Assembly (NCBI GenBank): GCA_016874535.1
Contig: VGUA01000006.1
Location: forward strand, 1-55,533
From: Gammaproteobacteria bacterium
GTDB lineage: Bacteria; Pseudomonadota; Gammaproteobacteria; Ga0077536
Direction: 5' to 3'
Length of the DNA: 55,533 nucleotides
Made by a program: the position numbers and the translations under genes. Below, piece after piece: positions 30,668 to 38,816 of the stretch. Below the pieces are notes generated by a model. That model was not told the DNA's origin. It was given only the letters and a program-made list of their open reading frames with translations, and ran no database searches. Numbering within the stretch: position 1 is the first letter of the stretch; every line of letters starts with the position of its first letter.

Positions 30668-32002
30668 TCACACCGTTATCCGAGCCCAGTCCCTCCGCAC
30701 CCAGAAAAGGCTGAACAGTCCGGCCTGAAGAATCCGGTACGCCACCTGGCATAGCCAGATTCCGGTCAGCCCGTAGCCGAGTATCGGGCCCACCAGGTAG
30801 GCCGCCGGCATGAACAGGCACCATTGGTTGAAGATGGCGACCTTCATCACGCGGCGTGTATCGCCCGCTCCCAGCAGGGCGTTCTGCAGGATGGTGCCGA
30901 CCGCTTCAAAGATCATGCTGAGCCCGATGAGTCGCAGCGGCCACAGCGCAATCTCCAGGGTGCGTGCATCCAGGGTGTAGATGGCAGTGAGCAATTCCCG
31001 CGGAATCAGCACCATGGGCAGACCGAGAATGGTGAGGCCGACGGCCGCAATCTTCACCACATCCCAACCCCAGCGCGCGGCCTCCTCCGGATTCCTGCGC
31101 CCCAGCGCCTGGCCCACCAGGGTGGAGGCGGCCAGCCCCAGACCCATGCCCGGCAACCAGGCCACCAGCATCACGTTCACCAGCACATTGCCGGCGGCAA
31201 CTTCCGAGGTACCCACCTTGCCGATGATCCAGAATAGCCCGAGCCAGCCTGCGGAAAAGAAAATCTGGTGCACGCCACTCGGCACCGAAATTTTGATGAG
31301 ACGCTTGATGTCCGGGCGCGAGGGCAGGCGCTTGAGGAACCCGAAGTCACGCGCAAAGCGCAGGCCGAACAGGAAATACAACGTGCTCCCGAAGCAGAGT
31401 GCGCAGATGGAGGCGAGTCCTGCGCCCTGCACGCCCATGGCGGGCGCGCCAAGGTTGCCGAAGATGAAAACCCAATTCAGAAAGATGTTCAGGCTGTGCA
31501 TCAGGATCAGCGTGAACATGTAGAGCCGAGTCATGTCGATCGCGTTCCAGTAACCCCGGAACGAGAAATTCATGGCAACGAAAATGATGCCGAAGGCCCG
31601 AATCTGCAGGTAGGGAATGCCGAGCGCCAGCACGTCCGGATCGTTGTTGATCAGCGGATACACATAGGGAATGGCAAGAATGAGCAGCAGCGAGATCACC
31701 GGCGCCACCAGCGCGATGATGAGCAGCGCCGCATTGAGGAACCAGGCGGTCTCGCTGGTGCGGCCTTCGCCCTTGCGCCGCGCAGCCGCGGCCAGCACGC
31801 CGGTGGAAAGACCCAAGATGATGGACTGCGCAACAAAGAGTGCGAACCCGCCATAGCCAACGGCGGCGAGTGCCGCGTCGCTGTGGTCGAGCCGGCTCAC
31901 CATGGCGGTATCCACCAGGTTCAGCACGTTCTGGGAGATCATGCCCGCGATCACGGGCAGCGCGAGATCGAGGATGCGGCGGACCCTGTCCTGAGCGACC
32001 AA
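30668..32002 (-). CDS. MATE family efflux transporter
   Basis: Twelve-helix cation-coupled multidrug/toxin exporter of 444 residues. N-terminal LALPVIAGMISQNVLNLVDTAMVSRL is diagnostic, and two homologous six-helix halves can be followed (second half at about residue 230: KISVPSGVHQIFFSAGWLGLF). Probable TTG start at 32002; no ATG upstream gives the conserved N-terminus. It is convergent with the SDR gene and lies 63 bp downstream of the CsoR-like gene on the same strand, so read-through from the sox operon is possible. Substrate unknown. Confidence 0.9.
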   Translation of the reverse strand: MVAQDRVRRILDLALPVIAGMISQNVLNLVDTAMVSRLDHSDAALAAVGYGGFALFVAQSIILGLSTGVLAAAARRKGEGRTSETAWFLNAALLIIALVAPVISLLLILAIPYVYPLINNDPDVLALGIPYLQIRAFGIIFVAMNFSFRGYWNAIDMTRLYMFTLILMHSLNIFLNWVFIFGNLGAPAMGVQGAGLASICALCFGSTLYFLFGLRFARDFGFLKRLPSRPDIKRLIKISVPSGVHQIFFSAGWLGLFWIIGKVGTSEVAAGNVLVNVMLVAWLPGMGLGLAASTLVGQALGRRNPEEAARWGWDVVKIAAVGLTILGLPMVLIPRELLTAIYTLDARTLEIALWPLRLIGLSMIFEAVGTILQNALLGAGDTRRVMKVAIFNQWCLFMPAAYLVGPILGYGLTGIWLCQVAYRILQAGLFSLFWVRRDWARITV

Positions 32003-32065: not shown

Positions 32066-32386
32066 TCAGCCGTACTTGGCGAGGATCCTCGTGACCTGAA
32101 TGCCGGCCGCCTTGGCGGCGGTGGAGTTGGCGGCGGATTCGACTTCCGCCTCCAGCGCGCAGGCGATGATTTCGAAGAAGGCCTTGTCCAGTGCACGACG
32201 TGCCGCAGCCACTTGCTGGGCCACCGGCTCACAGCCGGCATCCTGCTCGATCATCCCCTGGATACCGCGCAGCTGGCCTTCAATCCGGCGCAGGCGGGCG
32301 ATCATGCGCTGCTTGTGCTCCGCCTGTTGGGCGCTCGCCTCCGGCGTCGTCTTTTTTCGGGGCATGACCTTCTCCGCTACGGGCAT
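32066..32386 (-). CDS. CsoR/FrmR-family transcriptional repressor with rearranged cysteines
   Basis: 106-residue all-helical DUF156 (CsoR/RcnR/FrmR/CstR) repressor. The helix-1 signature RMIARLRRIEGQLRGIQGMI (residues 27-46) is clear. C52 aligns with the first ligand Cys of the family. From there the usual pattern is His at +25 and Cys at +29; here +25 is Ala, +29 is Glu, and a Cys (C76) sits at +24. So copper or nickel coordination of the known type is not possible, and the usual CstR pair (+0/+29) is also absent. It starts 10 bp after soxB with GAGGA overlapping the soxB stop, so it is the last gene of the sox operon. Inference: thiol-based sensor of sulfur species acting on the operator at 38764-38781. 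Confidence 0.88.
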   Translation of the reverse strand: MPVAEKVMPRKKTTPEASAQQAEHKQRMIARLRRIEGQLRGIQGMIEQDAGCEPVAQQVAAARRALDKAFFEIIACALEAEVESAANSTAAKAAGIQVTRILAKYG

Positions 32387-32395: not shown

Positions 32396-34105
32396 TCAGC
32401 TCAGTCCGGGATTGCCGTCCATGCCGACGAGGGTCGGCAGGTTCACGGCGGGTGCGGCGAGGGTCTTGTGGGCCTGCAGGTACTCCGCCACCACATCCCA
32501 AATTGCCGGGCCTTCGGCATTCTCCGCCACGGAGGCCCAACCCGCCACCCGGTAAGTCTTGGCGGCATCCAGCGGCTCACCGCCCAGCTGCAGATTGGAG
32601 ATGCGTGAACCGGCCGCGGCACCCGGTTCGCAGGTGTAGCTGAGTCCGCCCACGCGCACCATGTCGCCGCCCTGCTGGTAGTAGGGATCGGGATTGAAGA
32701 GGTTGTCCGCCACGTCTTCCAGAATCGCCTTGATGCGCTCGCCGGTGAAGCTGTTCACGGTGACGGCGGGGTAGGTGATGGCGGTCATGTCCATCAGCCG
32801 CTCGCGCGTGATGGTGTCGCCAGGCAGCAGGCTGGTGCCCCAGCGGAAGCCGGGCGAGAAGGCAATTGGCGTCGCCTGGGTCTCCATCAAGGCATCCAGA
32901 ATCACCTGATCAAAACTGCCATTGAAGTTGCCGCGGCGGTACAGCAGCCCCTCCGTGGTGGCCAAGGGCTCGGCGAGCTTGCTTGCGAAGGGTGCGCGTT
33001 GGGCCGCGATCACTTTCTCCATGGCCGTATCTGCCGGCAGCAGATTCGCGAACACCGGCAGCAGGCGGTACTGGATGGTCTTGATCACGCCATCCTTCAC
33101 GTCGAAGTCCATCACGCCCAGGAACTTGCCATTGCTGCCGGCATTGGTGACCAGAGTCACGCCGCCTGCATTCTTGACTTCCACCGGATGCGGGATGCCG
33201 TCGTGGGTATGGCCGCCGAGGATGGCATCCAGGCCCTGCACGCGGGAGGCGAGCTTGAGATCCACATCCATGCCATTGTGGGACAGGAGTACCACCACCT
33301 GAGCGCCTTCACTGCGCACTTGGTCGATCAGGGTCTGCAGGCGCTCTTCCTGCACCCCGAAGCTCCAGCTCGCTACCAGATGCCGCGGATTGGCGATGGG
33401 CGTGTAGGGGAAGGCCTGACCGATGATGGCCACATTCACACCGTTCATTTCACGCATCACATACGGTGGAAACACGGCATCCCCGAAATCGTTGTCCACC
33501 ACGTTTTGCGCGACGAAGGCGATGCGATCCTTCAACGGACCGTCGATGAGCTCGCGCACCCGGTCCATGCCATACGTGAATTCCCAGTGTGCGGTCATGA
33601 TGTCCACGCCGAGCTCGAGCTGGGCGGCGACCATGTCCGCGGCCTGCGTCCACAGCGAGGTGGCGGAGCCTTGCCAGGTATCGCCCCCATCGAGCAGCAG
33701 GGCACCCGGCCGGCTCGCCCGCAGACGCTTCACCAAGGTCGCAAGATGGGCGTAGCCACCCACCTTGCCGTAGGTGCGTGCCGCCGCCTCGAAGTCGAGG
33801 CAGGTGAGCGCATGGGCCACTGCCGTGTCGCCCTGCAGCTTGTAATGCTTGAGGAAATGCTCGCCGGTGAGGTGGGGTGGGTGACCGCGCCACTCCCCGA
33901 GCCCGAGGTTCACGCGCGGTTCGCGGAACCAGATGGGCAGCAGCTGGGCGTGCGCATCTGTGTAGTGCAGCAGGCTCACATTGCCGAAGGGCGGAACCTC
34001 ATAGAGTGCGGAGCCCTCCGCGTTCGCGAGCGCCGCCGGGCTGTGCAGATTGAAGCCACTGGCGCTTGCCACCGCCAGCAGCTGCATGAATTCGCGACGG
34101 TTCAT
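32396..34105 (-). CDS. soxB: Thiosulfohydrolase SoxB
   Basis: Periplasmic dimanganese enzyme that hydrolyses the sulfonate from SoxY-bound thiosulfate as sulfate. 569 residues. A Tat signal starts MNRREFMQLLAVASASG. Metal-site motifs: YTDAHAQ (D50, H52), LLDGGDTWQGS (138-147), TAHWEFTYG (171-179), LLSHNGMD (273-280) and GGHTHD (297-302). The 5'-nucleotidase C-terminal domain follows. ATGA overlap with soxX. Near-universal marker of the Sox pathway. Confidence 0.97.
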   Translation of the reverse strand: MNRREFMQLLAVASASGFNLHSPAALANAEGSALYEVPPFGNVSLLHYTDAHAQLLPIWFREPRVNLGLGEWRGHPPHLTGEHFLKHYKLQGDTAVAHALTCLDFEAAARTYGKVGGYAHLATLVKRLRASRPGALLLDGGDTWQGSATSLWTQAADMVAAQLELGVDIMTAHWEFTYGMDRVRELIDGPLKDRIAFVAQNVVDNDFGDAVFPPYVMREMNGVNVAIIGQAFPYTPIANPRHLVASWSFGVQEERLQTLIDQVRSEGAQVVVLLSHNGMDVDLKLASRVQGLDAILGGHTHDGIPHPVEVKNAGGVTLVTNAGSNGKFLGVMDFDVKDGVIKTIQYRLLPVFANLLPADTAMEKVIAAQRAPFASKLAEPLATTEGLLYRRGNFNGSFDQVILDALMETQATPIAFSPGFRWGTSLLPGDTITRERLMDMTAITYPAVTVNSFTGERIKAILEDVADNLFNPDPYYQQGGDMVRVGGLSYTCEPGAAAGSRISNLQLGGEPLDAAKTYRVAGWASVAENAEGPAIWDVVAEYLQAHKTLAAPAVNLPTLVGMDGNPGLS

Positions 34106-34734
34106 TGATTCACCGGCGAGGCGGGATCAAACAGGAAGGCCATCACATCCTTCAACTGTTGCTCGGTGAGTATCCCCCGGTGGCCGAAGCGCGGCATGTT
34201 GGAACACGGCGCATAGCTGTTCGAGTTGTAGACCATGCTCCACGCATAGGCGAGCACGGCGGGATCCTGACCGCGCAGCTTGCCGTAATGCTTGAGACTG
34301 GGCCCGAGGGTGCCATAGGCCATCTCAGTCGGAGAGAGCTCATGGCAGGCGTAACAGTTGCCGCCGTTGGGCTTGGCGGGATCATCACTGGACTGCAAGC
34401 CGGTGCCCGTGTTGGCAATGACTTCGCCGTTCTGCCAGTCGCCCAGGTACTGGCCGTCAGCCGGCGGCTTGACCGTGGCCAGATTGATCTCTGCGATCTT
34501 CTTGGCGACTACCGCCGGCAGAGCCTGATCGCGGGCCTCCGTGCAAAGTTTCTGGGTCTCGTCCTGATCGAGCCGATCCAGAGTGGCTTGGCGTTTGTCC
34601 TCGAAGGCGGATTTCATGATGGCCGTGATGTCCCGAGTGGCATCTGTCGGCTCGGCCGCGGCAAGGCCCATCGGCGCAGCGCACGCCACTGCGAGGAGCA
34701 TCTTGCGGCAGCGGGAACTCTCGAGAGTCTTCAT
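34102..34734 (-). CDS. soxX: Cytochrome c subunit SoxX
   Basis: Monoheme partner of SoxA in the complex that couples thiosulfate to SoxY and takes two electrons. 210 residues. Signal peptide 1-~27, an N-terminal extension of about 90 residues, then heme motif GGNCYACH (CYACH 127-131), a GTLGPSL segment and NSNSYAPCSNMPRFG, whose Met is the likely distal ligand. The long N-terminal extension is seen in the ~200-aa SoxX type. It starts 14 bp after soxA. Confidence 0.93.
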   Translation of the reverse strand: MKTLESSRCRKMLLAVACAAPMGLAAAEPTDATRDITAIMKSAFEDKRQATLDRLDQDETQKLCTEARDQALPAVVAKKIAEINLATVKPPADGQYLGDWQNGEVIANTGTGLQSSDDPAKPNGGNCYACHELSPTEMAYGTLGPSLKHYGKLRGQDPAVLAYAWSMVYNSNSYAPCSNMPRFGHRGILTEQQLKDVMAFLFDPASPVNQ

Positions 34735-34748
34735 AGGGGCTCCTCGGC

Positions 34749-35564
34749 TCAGCGCTTGATGGACGGTGCGACCATCTCACCGCCCTCGGCCTTGCGTGCA
34801 AGATAGAGGGTGAGACCGATGGCGACATCGGAACCGTATTTGAGCTGGGGTAGACGCTGCTGGCGGAAGCAATCCTGCAGGCGCCATTCCATGGTGCGCA
34901 GCTCGCCCTGTGACACCCGATAGGCCGGCCAGCGGGTATACGCGGCCTGGGCGCCTTCCTTGGTCGTGAGCTGCGGCAAGGTCTGCAGGCGGATGCGCTT
35001 GCCGGATTCGCTGTGGCAGGTGGCGCAGGCAAAGTCATGCGGTCCGGCCCGATAGAAAAACACACTCTCGCCCAGTGCGTAGGCCGCTTTTTCCGCAGGA
35101 TGATCGAGAGGAATGGAAATTCGACTGCCGCGTGAGGCGGCAACCACATAAGCCGTGAGCGCCTCCAGATCCGATTTGCGCTCCCCGTCACCAAATTTGA
35201 TGGCGAACACCTCGGATTCCGGCAGGCCCTGTAACGTAGTCATGCAGGTCACGAGCCGGGACTCCAAGTCCTGCACCTTGCCCGTATCCTCGAACCAGCG
35301 CGGGAGCTCCGCATAAGCGCCGGTAATGACACCAGGCCCCTTGCCCAGATCACAAGCCTCGAGGCTCACCTCGCGCGGTCCGCGTGGCGTCTTCCAGAGC
35401 TCTTCCCCGCGCAGTTGCCAGAGCTCGGCAGGATTCTCGTCGCCAAACATGGCGTGGTATTCGGCGATGGCTTCCTCCGAGGTCTGCTCGGCGGCGAGCG
35501 GCAGGCTCAGGGCCAGCAGCAGGCTTGCAATCAGCGAGCTTGTCGAACGTGCGGGCAAGGCCAT
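34749..35564 (-). CDS. soxA: L-cysteine S-thiosulfotransferase subunit SoxA (monoheme)
   Basis: Catalytic cytochrome of SoxAX. 271 residues, signal peptide 1-~25. Only one heme-binding CxxCH (CATCH, 180-184) is present. The N-terminal domain that binds a second heme in diheme SoxA keeps two isolated Cys (C71, C107) that could form a disulfide, so this is the monoheme type. The active-site/heme ligand Cys lies in DCFRQQRLPQ (C232). It is 24 bp after soxZ. Confidence 0.95.
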   Translation of the reverse strand: MALPARSTSSLIASLLLALSLPLAAEQTSEEAIAEYHAMFGDENPAELWQLRGEELWKTPRGPREVSLEACDLGKGPGVITGAYAELPRWFEDTGKVQDLESRLVTCMTTLQGLPESEVFAIKFGDGERKSDLEALTAYVVAASRGSRISIPLDHPAEKAAYALGESVFFYRAGPHDFACATCHSESGKRIRLQTLPQLTTKEGAQAAYTRWPAYRVSQGELRTMEWRLQDCFRQQRLPQLKYGSDVAIGLTLYLARKAEGGEMVAPSIKR

Positions 35565-35588: not shown

Positions 35589-35900
35589 TCAGTTGATGGT
35601 GACTTCATCCGTGCGGGTGCCGCCGGCCGTATCCTTCCAGGTGATCGACAGCTTGTCGCCCTTGGCTCCGCCCTTGAAGCGGAAGGAGAAGTAGGGGTTC
35701 TTGGCCACGGAAGGCCCCCAGGCTGCACTCATGACCGTCTTGTCCTTGCAGGTGGCGGTGACTTCCGTGATGTAGTGCGCTGGCACCACATTGCCATCGG
35801 CATCCTTGCGCTGTCCGGTTTCCATCACATGGCTCATCAGGATCTTCACGTCCACCACTTCACCCATCATCACGGCGCGGATGCGCATCGGATCTGGCAT
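35589..35900 (-). CDS. soxZ: Thiosulfate carrier subunit SoxZ
   Basis: Ig-like beta-sandwich protein of 103 residues that pairs with SoxY. It has the family pattern MPDPMRIRAVMMGEVVDVKILMSH at the start, AHYITEVTATCKDK in the middle and KGDKLSITWKDTAG near the end. No signal peptide, as normal: it is exported as a complex with Tat-dependent SoxY. It lies 22 bp after soxY. Confidence 0.94.
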   Translation of the reverse strand: MPDPMRIRAVMMGEVVDVKILMSHVMETGQRKDADGNVVPAHYITEVTATCKDKTVMSAAWGPSVAKNPYFSFRFKGGAKGDKLSITWKDTAGGTRTDEVTIN

Positions 35901-35922: not shown

Positions 35923-36387
35923 TCAACCGCCGCAACCGCCCAAGGTGACTTTCACCACCTTGGCCGCATGAAACACCCCGGCATCGGTTTTCACCACGGC
36001 GTAGACATCGGAGGTCTCCGCCACCTTGAGGCGCGTGGAAACGAAAGCCTCTGTACCTTCGGGAATCATGAACTCGGCGGACATCTGGTGAGGGTTCTTT
36101 TCCACCAGCAGCGCGATCGAGCGGGTGCCGGGCAGCTTGCTGGTGACTTCCACCGGCACCACCGCCCCGTTCTCGGCAATATCCGGGGCCTTCAGGATGA
36201 TCTCGGCCGAGGCCTTGTGCTCGGTCACGCCAATGGAGGCGAGTGCCTCCTTGAAGCTCGTGGCTTCAAAGGCGGGTCGCGCATCCACGGCCTGGGCCAG
36301 ACGGCTGAAGAGGCCGGTGGCGAGGGTGGCGGCCGCCAGTCCCAGTTGGCCGGTCAAGGCGAGAAATCCGCGGCGGGTTTTTTTCAT
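35923..36387 (-). CDS. soxY: Thiosulfate carrier subunit SoxY
   Basis: Carries all Sox intermediates on the Cys of its flexible C-terminal GGCGG tail (ending VTLGGCGG). 154 residues from ATG 36387, which has GGAGG just upstream. The open frame reaching 36537 is non-conserved. Twin-arginine signal KKTRRGFLAL (residues 2-11). It is followed by soxZ, with which it forms the SoxYZ heterodimer. Confidence 0.96.
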   Translation of the reverse strand: MKKTRRGFLALTGQLGLAAATLATGLFSRLAQAVDARPAFEATSFKEALASIGVTEHKASAEIILKAPDIAENGAVVPVEVTSKLPGTRSIALLVEKNPHQMSAEFMIPEGTEAFVSTRLKVAETSDVYAVVKTDAGVFHAAKVVKVTLGGCGG

Positions 36388-36440: not shown

Positions 36441-37418
36441 TCAGTCTGCGGGCGCGCCGGCGAGCAGCCAGGCCAACACCAGTGCGAGATCCGAATCCGG
36501 GATGGAAGCTTGGGCCGGCATCATCGCACCGCCCCACACGCCGCTGCCACCTGCACGTACCTTGGCGGTCAGCAGGGCGCTGGCCTCCGGGTTGCCGGCA
36601 TAGCGTTCGGCGATTGCAGTGAAGGCGGGCCCGACAATGGGTGTGTCCACGCCGTGGCAGGTGAGGCAGCCGTTTGCGGCAGCGAGCTCGGCGGGGGATT
36701 TGGTACCCGCATTCGTGGCCGGCGCCAGGGCAGTGGCCGGCAGATCGGTCAGGCCCGCGAGTGCGCGGAAGTGGGTGCGGATATCGCCATACATCTCCTC
36801 TGTGAAACCGGCAGGCAATTCGGAGCTCACCGTCACTTCACCCGTGCAGTCCTGCATGCAGGCCTTGGCCTGCACGTCCGGTTTGCCGTCCACCGTCATG
36901 AAACCGTGTGCTTGGGTAAAGCCCTCGCGGTTGGGCATGACGACTGCCGGCAGGGTCTTTTCATCCAGCGTCGCATCCATGGGCAGGATCTCGGCGAGAT
37001 TCAGCACATAGGCGGTGACGGCATACACCTCATCCACTGTCAGCACCTTGGAATGCGTGAACGGCATCGCGCGATTGATGTACTCCCAGAGTGTCGTCGC
37101 GTAGTCGAGCTTGCTCGCCACGGTCCGTTGCGGGGTGTCGCTCGCCAGAGTGCCTATGCCACCGGTGAGCGCGAGGTAGTCGTTGCTCTCGCCAAAGACC
37201 CCATGACAGCTCGCGCACTGCGCATCATAAAGAGTCTGGCCCTGCTCCACGCTGCCCTTGCCGGGCGGCAGTCCCATGCCATCGGGCCGCACATCGATAT
37301 CCCAGCTGGAGATCTCGCGCGCGGTGAGCGGCTCCCCCAGCGATTGCCAGGGCGTCGCCGCCGTGGCCGAGCCGGCACAGAGCAGCAGCGCGGCGAGCAG
37401 GGCGCTAGACCTGAACAT
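36441..37418 (-). CDS. soxD: Diheme cytochrome c subunit SoxD of sulfane dehydrogenase
   Basis: Electron-accepting subunit of SoxCD, which oxidises the sulfane sulfur on SoxY and raises the electron yield from two to eight per thiosulfate. 325 residues. Signal peptide 1-~20, first heme CASCH (68-72), second heme CLTCH (251-255) and a VGPAFTAIAERY / GGAMMPAQ distal-Met region. ATG at 37418 overlaps the end of soxC by 14 bp. The longer upstream frame is antisense-like and discarded. Confidence 0.92.
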   Translation of the reverse strand: MFRSSALLAALLLCAGSATAATPWQSLGEPLTAREISSWDIDVRPDGMGLPPGKGSVEQGQTLYDAQCASCHGVFGESNDYLALTGGIGTLASDTPQRTVASKLDYATTLWEYINRAMPFTHSKVLTVDEVYAVTAYVLNLAEILPMDATLDEKTLPAVVMPNREGFTQAHGFMTVDGKPDVQAKACMQDCTGEVTVSSELPAGFTEEMYGDIRTHFRALAGLTDLPATALAPATNAGTKSPAELAAANGCLTCHGVDTPIVGPAFTAIAERYAGNPEASALLTAKVRAGGSGVWGGAMMPAQASIPDSDLALVLAWLLAGAPAD

Positions 37419-38715
37419 TGCGCACCTCGCCGCTGGCCAGCACCTGCCAGGTCTGCACCGCGTTGTTGTGATAGATCGAGCGCGTGCCACGCACTTCGCG
37501 GAGTTGCTTGATGGACGGTTGCACATAGCCGGTGGCATCAATGCACCGGCTCTGCAGCAGCGCAGGCGAACCATCCCACACCCAGTCGAAGCGGAAACGC
37601 GTGAGCGCCTTGGGCAGTACCGGTGTCTGCAGGGTGGCCGTCTTCCAGTTGCGGCCGCCATCCACCGACACATCCACGCGCTTGATGCTGCCGCGCCCGG
37701 ACCAGGCGAGGCCGGTGATCTCGTAATAGCCGCCCTTGTCGAGCAAGGTCATCCCGCCCGACGGCGATGTGATCACGGACTTTGCTTCCTGAATCCAGGT
37801 GAACTGACGACTTTTGCCGTCAGGTAGCAGATCCGAGTAATGCAGGGTTTCTTCTCGCGTATGCCAGGGTTGATCGCCCACCTCGATGCGGCGCAACCAC
37901 TTCACGCTGGAGACGCCCTGCACGCCGGGCACGAACAGGCGCAACGGATAGCCGTTTTCGGGCCTGAGCATTTCGCCGTTCTGGCCATACACCACGATTG
38001 CATCATCCAAGGCCATGGCAAGCGGAATCGTGCGCGTGAGTGCTGCGCCGTCCGCGCCCTCCGCCAGCAGATAGCGGGCGCGCTTGGCATCGAAGCCCAC
38101 GTCTTCCAGCAAGGTCGACAGCAGCACCCCGGTGTATTCCGCGCAGGACAGCATGCCGTGCGTGAACTGCACCGTGGGCACGGCGGCATTGCCCCATTCC
38201 ATGCCGGTATTCGCGCCACATTCAAGGAAATGCACGCGCGACACGGACGGCATGCGGAGGATGTCTTCCATGGTGTACCGCTTGGGACGCGCCACCAGAC
38301 CGTGCAGCGCCAGCAGGTGCTGGTGGGGATCGACATCCGGCACGCCGGCGTGATCGCGCTCGAAGTGCAGACCGCTCGGCGTGATGATCCCGAAGAGATT
38401 CTGCAAGGGCGTGAAGGCGATGGAGGATTCGTTGGTGCGGGTGAGGCCTGGGCTTTGTCGGCGGACGACGTTCGCCTCGTGTGGCGAGGGCTGGCTGTAG
38501 GGCTGTGCCGCCACGGGCTTGCCGAGCCGCTTCATGGAGTCCGGCACCGGCAGCGGCTCTCCGGGCGTGAAGCCCGCGGCCGCACCACCGCTTGCCAGTG
38601 CTGCGGAGGCGCCCGCCAGGCCGCGCAGGAAAGCCCGTCGCGCCCCGGGCTGTGCGCTGCGCTCGACGACCGGCGCGTTGATCAACCGCCCCTGGAGCGT
38701 CTTTTTCTTGTCCAT
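37405..38715 (-). CDS. soxC: Molybdenum subunit SoxC of sulfane dehydrogenase
   Basis: Sulfite-oxidase-family molybdopterin subunit. 436 residues. Tat signal near GARRAFLRGLAGASAAL (residues 25-41). The Moco-ligating Cys is C166 in HFLECGANTGMEW. The C-terminal dimerisation domain (GRGSIKRVDVSVDGGRNW) is complete. First gene of the sox operon: a promoter, an operator-like site and an inverted repeat lie in the 131-bp gap before it, and GGGAGGT is its ribosome-binding site. Its cofactor need fits the modABC operon in the same window. Confidence 0.95.
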   Translation of the reverse strand: MDKKKTLQGRLINAPVVERSAQPGARRAFLRGLAGASAALASGGAAAGFTPGEPLPVPDSMKRLGKPVAAQPYSQPSPHEANVVRRQSPGLTRTNESSIAFTPLQNLFGIITPSGLHFERDHAGVPDVDPHQHLLALHGLVARPKRYTMEDILRMPSVSRVHFLECGANTGMEWGNAAVPTVQFTHGMLSCAEYTGVLLSTLLEDVGFDAKRARYLLAEGADGAALTRTIPLAMALDDAIVVYGQNGEMLRPENGYPLRLFVPGVQGVSSVKWLRRIEVGDQPWHTREETLHYSDLLPDGKSRQFTWIQEAKSVITSPSGGMTLLDKGGYYEITGLAWSGRGSIKRVDVSVDGGRNWKTATLQTPVLPKALTRFRFDWVWDGSPALLQSRCIDATGYVQPSIKQLREVRGTRSIYHNNAVQTWQVLASGEVRNVQV

Positions 38716-38740
38716 GCCGACCTCCCCGGTGCGCGGGGGG

Positions 38741-38761
38741 CCTGCGTCAAGTCAACGCAGG
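38741..38761. promoter_or_regulatory. Inverted repeat in the soxC leader
   Basis: Perfect 7-bp arms CCTGCGT / ACGCAGG with a 7-bp spacer, lying in the leader about 20 bp downstream of the predicted start and 26 bp before the soxC ATG. It could be an mRNA hairpin close to the ribosome-binding site or a second protein-binding site. Confidence 0.5.
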
Positions 38762-38763
38762 TG

Positions 38764-38781
38764 CATACCCCCACCCGTATG
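38764..38781 (-). promoter_or_regulatory. CsoR-family-type operator at the sox promoter
   Basis: Read on the minus strand the site is CATACGGGTGGGGGTATG: perfect 5-bp arms (CATAC/GTATG) around a G-tract. This is the known layout of CsoR, RcnR, FrmR and CstR operators (AT-rich arms flanking a G/C tract). It covers the predicted transcription start of soxC, so a bound repressor would block initiation. The likely ligand is the CsoR-like protein encoded by the last gene of the operon. Confidence 0.6.
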
Positions 38782-38787
38782 GCCGCG

Positions 38788-38816
38788 AGACTAGCGAAGC
38801 CCCGTCACGCCGTCAA
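38788..38816 (-). promoter_or_regulatory. Predicted sigma-70 promoter of the sox operon
   Basis: On the minus strand, TTGACG (38816-38811), a 17-bp spacer and TAGTCT (38793-38788). It faces soxC and sits between the EthD gene and soxC. Start expected near 38781, giving a leader of about 65 nt. Confidence 0.6.

Follow-up and report, generated by a model that had tools for sequence, protein, structure and literature searches.

The window analysed here, positions 1 to 55,533 of contig VGUA01000006.1 from Gammaproteobacteria bacterium (GCA_016874535.1; genome of 3.08 Mb, G000 in our comparisons), carries a sox operon on its minus strand in the order soxC-D-Y-Z-A-X-B, followed by a gene for a DUF156 protein. 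The question raised by this locus is whether that protein controls the operon and, if so, from which site and in response to which signal. The features concerned are the following.

38811..38816, minus strand: -35 hexamer TTGACG (TTGA(C/T) at the same place in nine genomes)
38788..38793, minus strand: -10 hexamer TAGTCT, 17 bp from the -35 (a better -10, TATAGT, TATATT or TATACT, in several relatives)
38764..38781, minus strand: predicted operator CATACGGGTGGGGGTATG, core ATAC-N4-G-GGGG-TAT (11/16 core positions invariant in 9/9 promoters)
37405..38715, minus strand: soxC, sulfite/sulfane dehydrogenase subunit (TIGR04555, 610 bits)
36441..37406, minus strand: soxD, cytochrome c, start codon not fixed (assigned by position, weak cytochrome c matches and its adjoining soxC in relatives too)
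35923..36387, minus strand: soxY, likely start MKKTRRGF (TIGR04488)
35589..35900, minus strand: soxZ (TIGR04490)
34749..35564, minus strand: soxA (TIGR04484)
34102..34734, minus strand: soxX (TIGR04485)
32396..34105, minus strand: soxB (TIGR04486, 855 bits)
32066..32386, minus strand: DUF156 (CsoR/RcnR-fold) regulator of 106 amino acids with Cys52 and Cys76 (PF02583)

All Sox proteins of the operon except SoxD exceeded the curated cut-offs in the profile search. The DUF156 gene starts 9 bp past soxB and is the only PF02583 gene in the whole genome; the profile and the gene order bear out the earlier note on this DNA, which had taken a CsoR-family member to be the last gene of a soxCDYZAXB operon. 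A MATE-type efflux gene (30668-32002) follows on the same strand about 64 bp past the regulator, likewise in the closest relative (G003), and may or may not belong to the operon. In five relatives, a metallo-beta-lactamase-fold hydrolase gene with an HYHADH motif, absent in the window, lies between soxB and the regulator (L042, L043, L044, L047, L049).

The promoter elements described previously (TTGACG, 17 bp, TAGTCT, then a CATAC/GTATG repeat with a G-tract) were all confirmed, on the minus strand. The hexamers of the window are weak by themselves (8/12 matches), and a promoter scan at a threshold of 9 found nothing at the soxC promoter, but nine genomes share their geometry, which supports them, and the hexamers of the relatives reach up to 11/12 matches. 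The inverted repeat CATAC-GGGTGGGG-GTATG spans 38764-38781, and the predicted operator core ATACGGGTGGGGGTAT (38765-38780) lies 7 bp past the -10. The pattern ATAC-N8-GTAT, with a run of four G or C within the N8, was found in 0/20,000 dinucleotide shuffles of the 176-bp promoter piece. Across the genome, ATACSSSNSSSSGTAT has a single perfect match, which is the sox promoter site, and ATACNNNNGGGGGTAT occurs twice, at the sox promoter and at C20:19836. A chance origin of the site was ruled out by the shuffles and these match counts. TGCGTTGAC is likewise present twice, at the -35 and in the soxC leader.

Orthologs of the regulator in related genomes are 59-95% identical, and nine genomes (G000, G003, G002, G005, G004, G011, G027, G010 and G032) have the regulator on a sox-bearing contig and a soxC upstream region that could be inspected; in G010 and G032, soxC is on another contig than the regulator, which soxB adjoins. 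The site was present in 9/9 soxC promoters tied to the regulator (this genome and eight relatives), following the pattern ATAC, four variable bases, G or A, GGGGTAT, although the sites of G004, with an A in the tract, and G010 were picked up by a looser motif scan. It lies 3-10 bp past the -10 in these promoters, and the flanks barely align. The site was absent from all 16 soxC-like genes that have no regulator linked to them (Fisher p = 5e-7). This p value is a guide only, since shared ancestry links the counts and the sixteen are mostly more distant soxC-like genes, including some second copies. All nine promoters belong to a single family and so cannot count as independent; metagenome assemblies make up at least two of the nine genomes. 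Overall, the check proposed earlier, conservation of the site in relatives that bear the regulator, came out in favour of the pairing, and the suggested regulator-operator pair and its autoregulation are well supported by this comparison. In several genomes of the family there is also an additional soxCD-like pair, less closely related (45-57% identical), that has neither the site nor a linked regulator.

The most telling control for co-occurrence is G001, a member of the same genus with a complete soxCDYZAXB and a soxC that is 70-74% identical. This genome has no close DUF156 ortholog and no operator site; an ArsR gene lies just upstream of its soxC together with a divergent rhodanese gene. 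Outside the family, no sox genes were found near the regulator at the non-family matches whose surroundings were read, drawn from samples of 369 genomes of the class and 398 of the phylum, and no plasmid-borne relatives were found. A further copy of the site, ATACTCTCGGGGGTAT, covers a likely -10 (TATACT) ahead of a gene for a TPR-repeat protein in G000 (C20:19836-19851; L061, L063) and in G003 (C27:37621-37636; L055), and another, imperfect copy immediately precedes it. Non-sox site matches over the family were about as frequent as matches to a reversed-pattern control, so the TPR gene is no more than a possible further target of the regulator.

The protein itself scored 75.1 bits against the PF02583 profile (Pfam gathering score 22.8), and its AlphaFold model (pLDDT 85) shows the three-helix CsoR fold. 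The top 19 PDB matches in Foldseek were CsoR, FrmR, CstR and InrS structures, with probabilities of 0.99-1.00, TM-scores of up to 0.84 by target and E-values of only about 0.004, which is no surprise for a protein so short and helical. In the tree, sox-clade proteins (nine sox-linked and one whose contig is too short to show its linkage) lie on one side of a branch with a support of 95/98, apart from proteins with the metal-ligand pattern, while many inner forks are poorly supported. Cys52 and Cys76, 24 residues apart, are invariant in 10/10 clade members. Counted from the first conserved cysteine, position +25 is Ala, Thr or Ser and position +29 is Glu in all ten, whereas CsoR-type proteins of the same set carry His and Cys there, respectively; the arrangement of copper-sensing CsoR (Cys at 0, His at +25, Cys at +29) is thus not found. 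Identity with CstR was dropped on the cysteine spacing (24 instead of 29, with Glu at +29). The CsoR-type assignment proposed earlier therefore holds for profile and fold but not for the ligand residues, which are unlike those of standard CsoR or CstR. In an ideal helix, residues +24 and +25 face directions about 100 degrees apart, so that a bridge between Cys52 and Cys76' of facing protomers is a candidate only. With ATAC/GTAT arms and a G/C tract in 9/9 soxC promoters, the site has the pseudo-palindromic sequence of a CsoR/RcnR-family operator.

Evidence for the signal came from relatives of the regulator outside sox operons. Among 12 such DUF156 proteins with the +24 cysteine, six (G107, G174, G060, G573, G753, G643) are encoded within approximately 10 kb of SQR, PDO, YeeE, TauE or SulP genes, and no sulfur gene was found near the other six. 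Within 5 kb of the 12 regulators there are nine ATAC-N8-GTAT sites, compared to 0.12 expected: one lies directly upstream of YeeE-PDO-regulator in G107, one between divergent SQR and PDO genes in G060, and others just upstream of the regulator gene in G042 and G174. These neighbourhoods and sites speak for the assigned operator as well as for a sulfur signal to the regulator. Because the site tracks the regulator, and because related DUF156 proteins are found near sulfur genes with the same kind of site, the DUF156 protein and the site are likely a repressor-operator pair that responds to sulfane sulfur.

Our preferred reading, to which we assign a probability of roughly 0.72 on comparative sequence evidence, is that the operon-encoded CsoR/RcnR-fold repressor binds ATACGGGTGGGGGTAT and is released by sulfane sulfur, allowing soxCDYZAXB to be expressed. 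The repressor would sit over the expected soxC transcription start and block RNA polymerase sterically, and since its gene lies within the operon, the circuit would be autoregulated. Oxidation of thiosulfate or sulfide would raise cytoplasmic sulfane sulfur (persulfide or polysulfide), by which Cys52 and Cys76 would be modified or bridged, and the protein would then leave the site. What was observed directly is the site and how it tracks the regulator, the geometry of the promoter, the protein fold, a pair of cysteines that does not vary, and sulfur-oxidation genes around several relatives of the regulator; we infer binding, repression, inducer and cysteine chemistry. As Sox works in the periplasm (PMC10318464), the sulfur signal must be generated in or imported to the cytoplasm; the abstract of PMC11582611 ties YeeE-like SoxT import to such signalling, and YeeE-like genes on contig C84 could encode possible importers.

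Those genes, together with a PDO-like gene of the metallo-beta-lactamase fold, adjoin the only ArsR (PF01022) gene of the genome (C84:2210-2344 and around, L120), the product of which has cysteines typical of BigR/SqrR-like proteins. The earlier statement that no ArsR-type SoxR is present is correct for the sox locus, though this one ArsR gene lies on another contig, and sulfur-responsive repressors of two different families may be at work in the cell. An alternative explanation is that this ArsR protein controls sox in trans, as ArsR-type SoxR controls sox genes elsewhere (PMC10451225, PMC12423496), and that the DUF156 gene has another role. However, no sequence of more than 8 bases is shared between the C84 ArsR-PDO intergenic region and the sox promoter, and the conserved promoter element tracks the DUF156 gene, which makes this highly unlikely; joint control by both proteins may occur. 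A reading of the inverted repeat as an RNA element, or as a chance palindrome with no protein to bind it, is barely credible. A hairpin (CCTGCGT...ACGCAGG) does lie in the leader 3' of the predicted operator (window 38690-38763), and G003 has one of different sequence at the same place, but primary sequence and not just pairing is kept in the nine promoters, and the element is absent where the regulator is. The leader hairpin or riboswitch reading was dropped, as Rfam gave no match and the leader folding was no stronger than the range of shuffles.

Other readings accept a repressor bound at the site and differ in what it senses. The inducer might be thiosulfate, sulfite or a general disulfide or oxidant signal; the CsoR-family protein TTHA1953 of Thermus thermophilus HB8 no longer binds once oxidised by Cu(II) or H2O2, and is unresponsive to NaHS in vitro (PMC10318464). 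We consider this rather improbable here, given that sulfane sulfur is the signal sensed by CstR and YrkD (PMC9774590, PMC9918477) and that related regulators adjoin persulfide-handling genes. Sensing of a metal (copper, nickel) or of formaldehyde, as in CsoR, RcnR, InrS or FrmR, would agree with the G-tract, which is typical of operators of metal-sensing members (PMC10318464), and with the best curated-profile matches (RicR, FrmR and RcnR), although all of these are far below cut-off. It appears distinctly unlikely with the His at +25 and the Cys/His at +29 replaced, and the neighbours are sulfur-oxidation genes, with no metal efflux gene identified among them; a metal-sensor assignment was dropped because the metal-ligand positions are lost in all ten clade members.

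Compared to known systems, sulfane sulfur-responsive repression of sox genes as proposed here resembles that by ArsR-type SoxR of alphaproteobacteria (PMC10451225, PMC12423496), which belongs to a protein family unrelated to DUF156; the studied genome has no ArsR helix-turn-helix gene at its sox locus. CsoR, RcnR, InrS and FrmR share the fold of our regulator, and CsoR and RcnR also a G-tract operator, but their metal or formaldehyde ligand positions are absent from it. CstR of Staphylococcus aureus and YrkD of Bacillus licheniformis are DUF156 repressors that are linked to sulfide/persulfide oxidation genes and sense sulfane sulfur by a cysteine pair (PMC9774590, PMC9918477). A comparable linkage was found here, with sox genes in the window and sulfur genes near half of the non-sox relatives. 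However, the CstR/YrkD pair (Cys31/Cys60) is 29 residues apart, and their targets are sulfide detoxification genes and not sox. Somewhat tentatively, and at slightly under even odds, the sox-linked proteins and most related DUF156 proteins outside the family could together be a hitherto undescribed branch, within proteobacteria, of sulfane-sulfur sensors with cysteines 24 apart; one of its lineages would have been recruited from sulfide-oxidation genes to a full sox operon, exchanging with ArsR-type control within one genus.

The earlier note knew of no described CsoR-family control of a full Sox operon, but such control is already known, as TTHA1953 represses the sox genes of T. thermophilus HB8 (Barrows and Van Dyke 2023, PMC10318464); we found no other case for sox genes in the open-licence literature, subscription papers being outside our scope. 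Sox regulation is known in few organisms, and the present locus adds a case outside Thermus in the form of a compact circuit that probably regulates itself, together with a 16-bp predicted operator defined by comparison and a natural control in a sister species that has another regulator type and no site. Similar to our regulator, TTHA1953 is a CsoR-family sox protein with two cysteines, which are important for DNA release (PMC10318464). It is encoded far from sox, however, whereas the regulator here is cis-encoded in the operon; its motif TACNNTACNNNNGTANNGTA lacks the G-tract (PMC10318464) that accompanies TAC-N8-GTA here; and its cysteines, C39 and C68, are 29 residues apart (PMC10318464), so that neither its motif nor its spacing was found in our system. 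The cysteine spacing, unlike that of both CstR and TTHA1953, makes the sensing chemistry of the family testable. As predicted from sequence, then, what would be new relative to known sox control is the operon linkage, the G-tract operator, the cysteine spacing and the exchange with an ArsR gene inside one genus.
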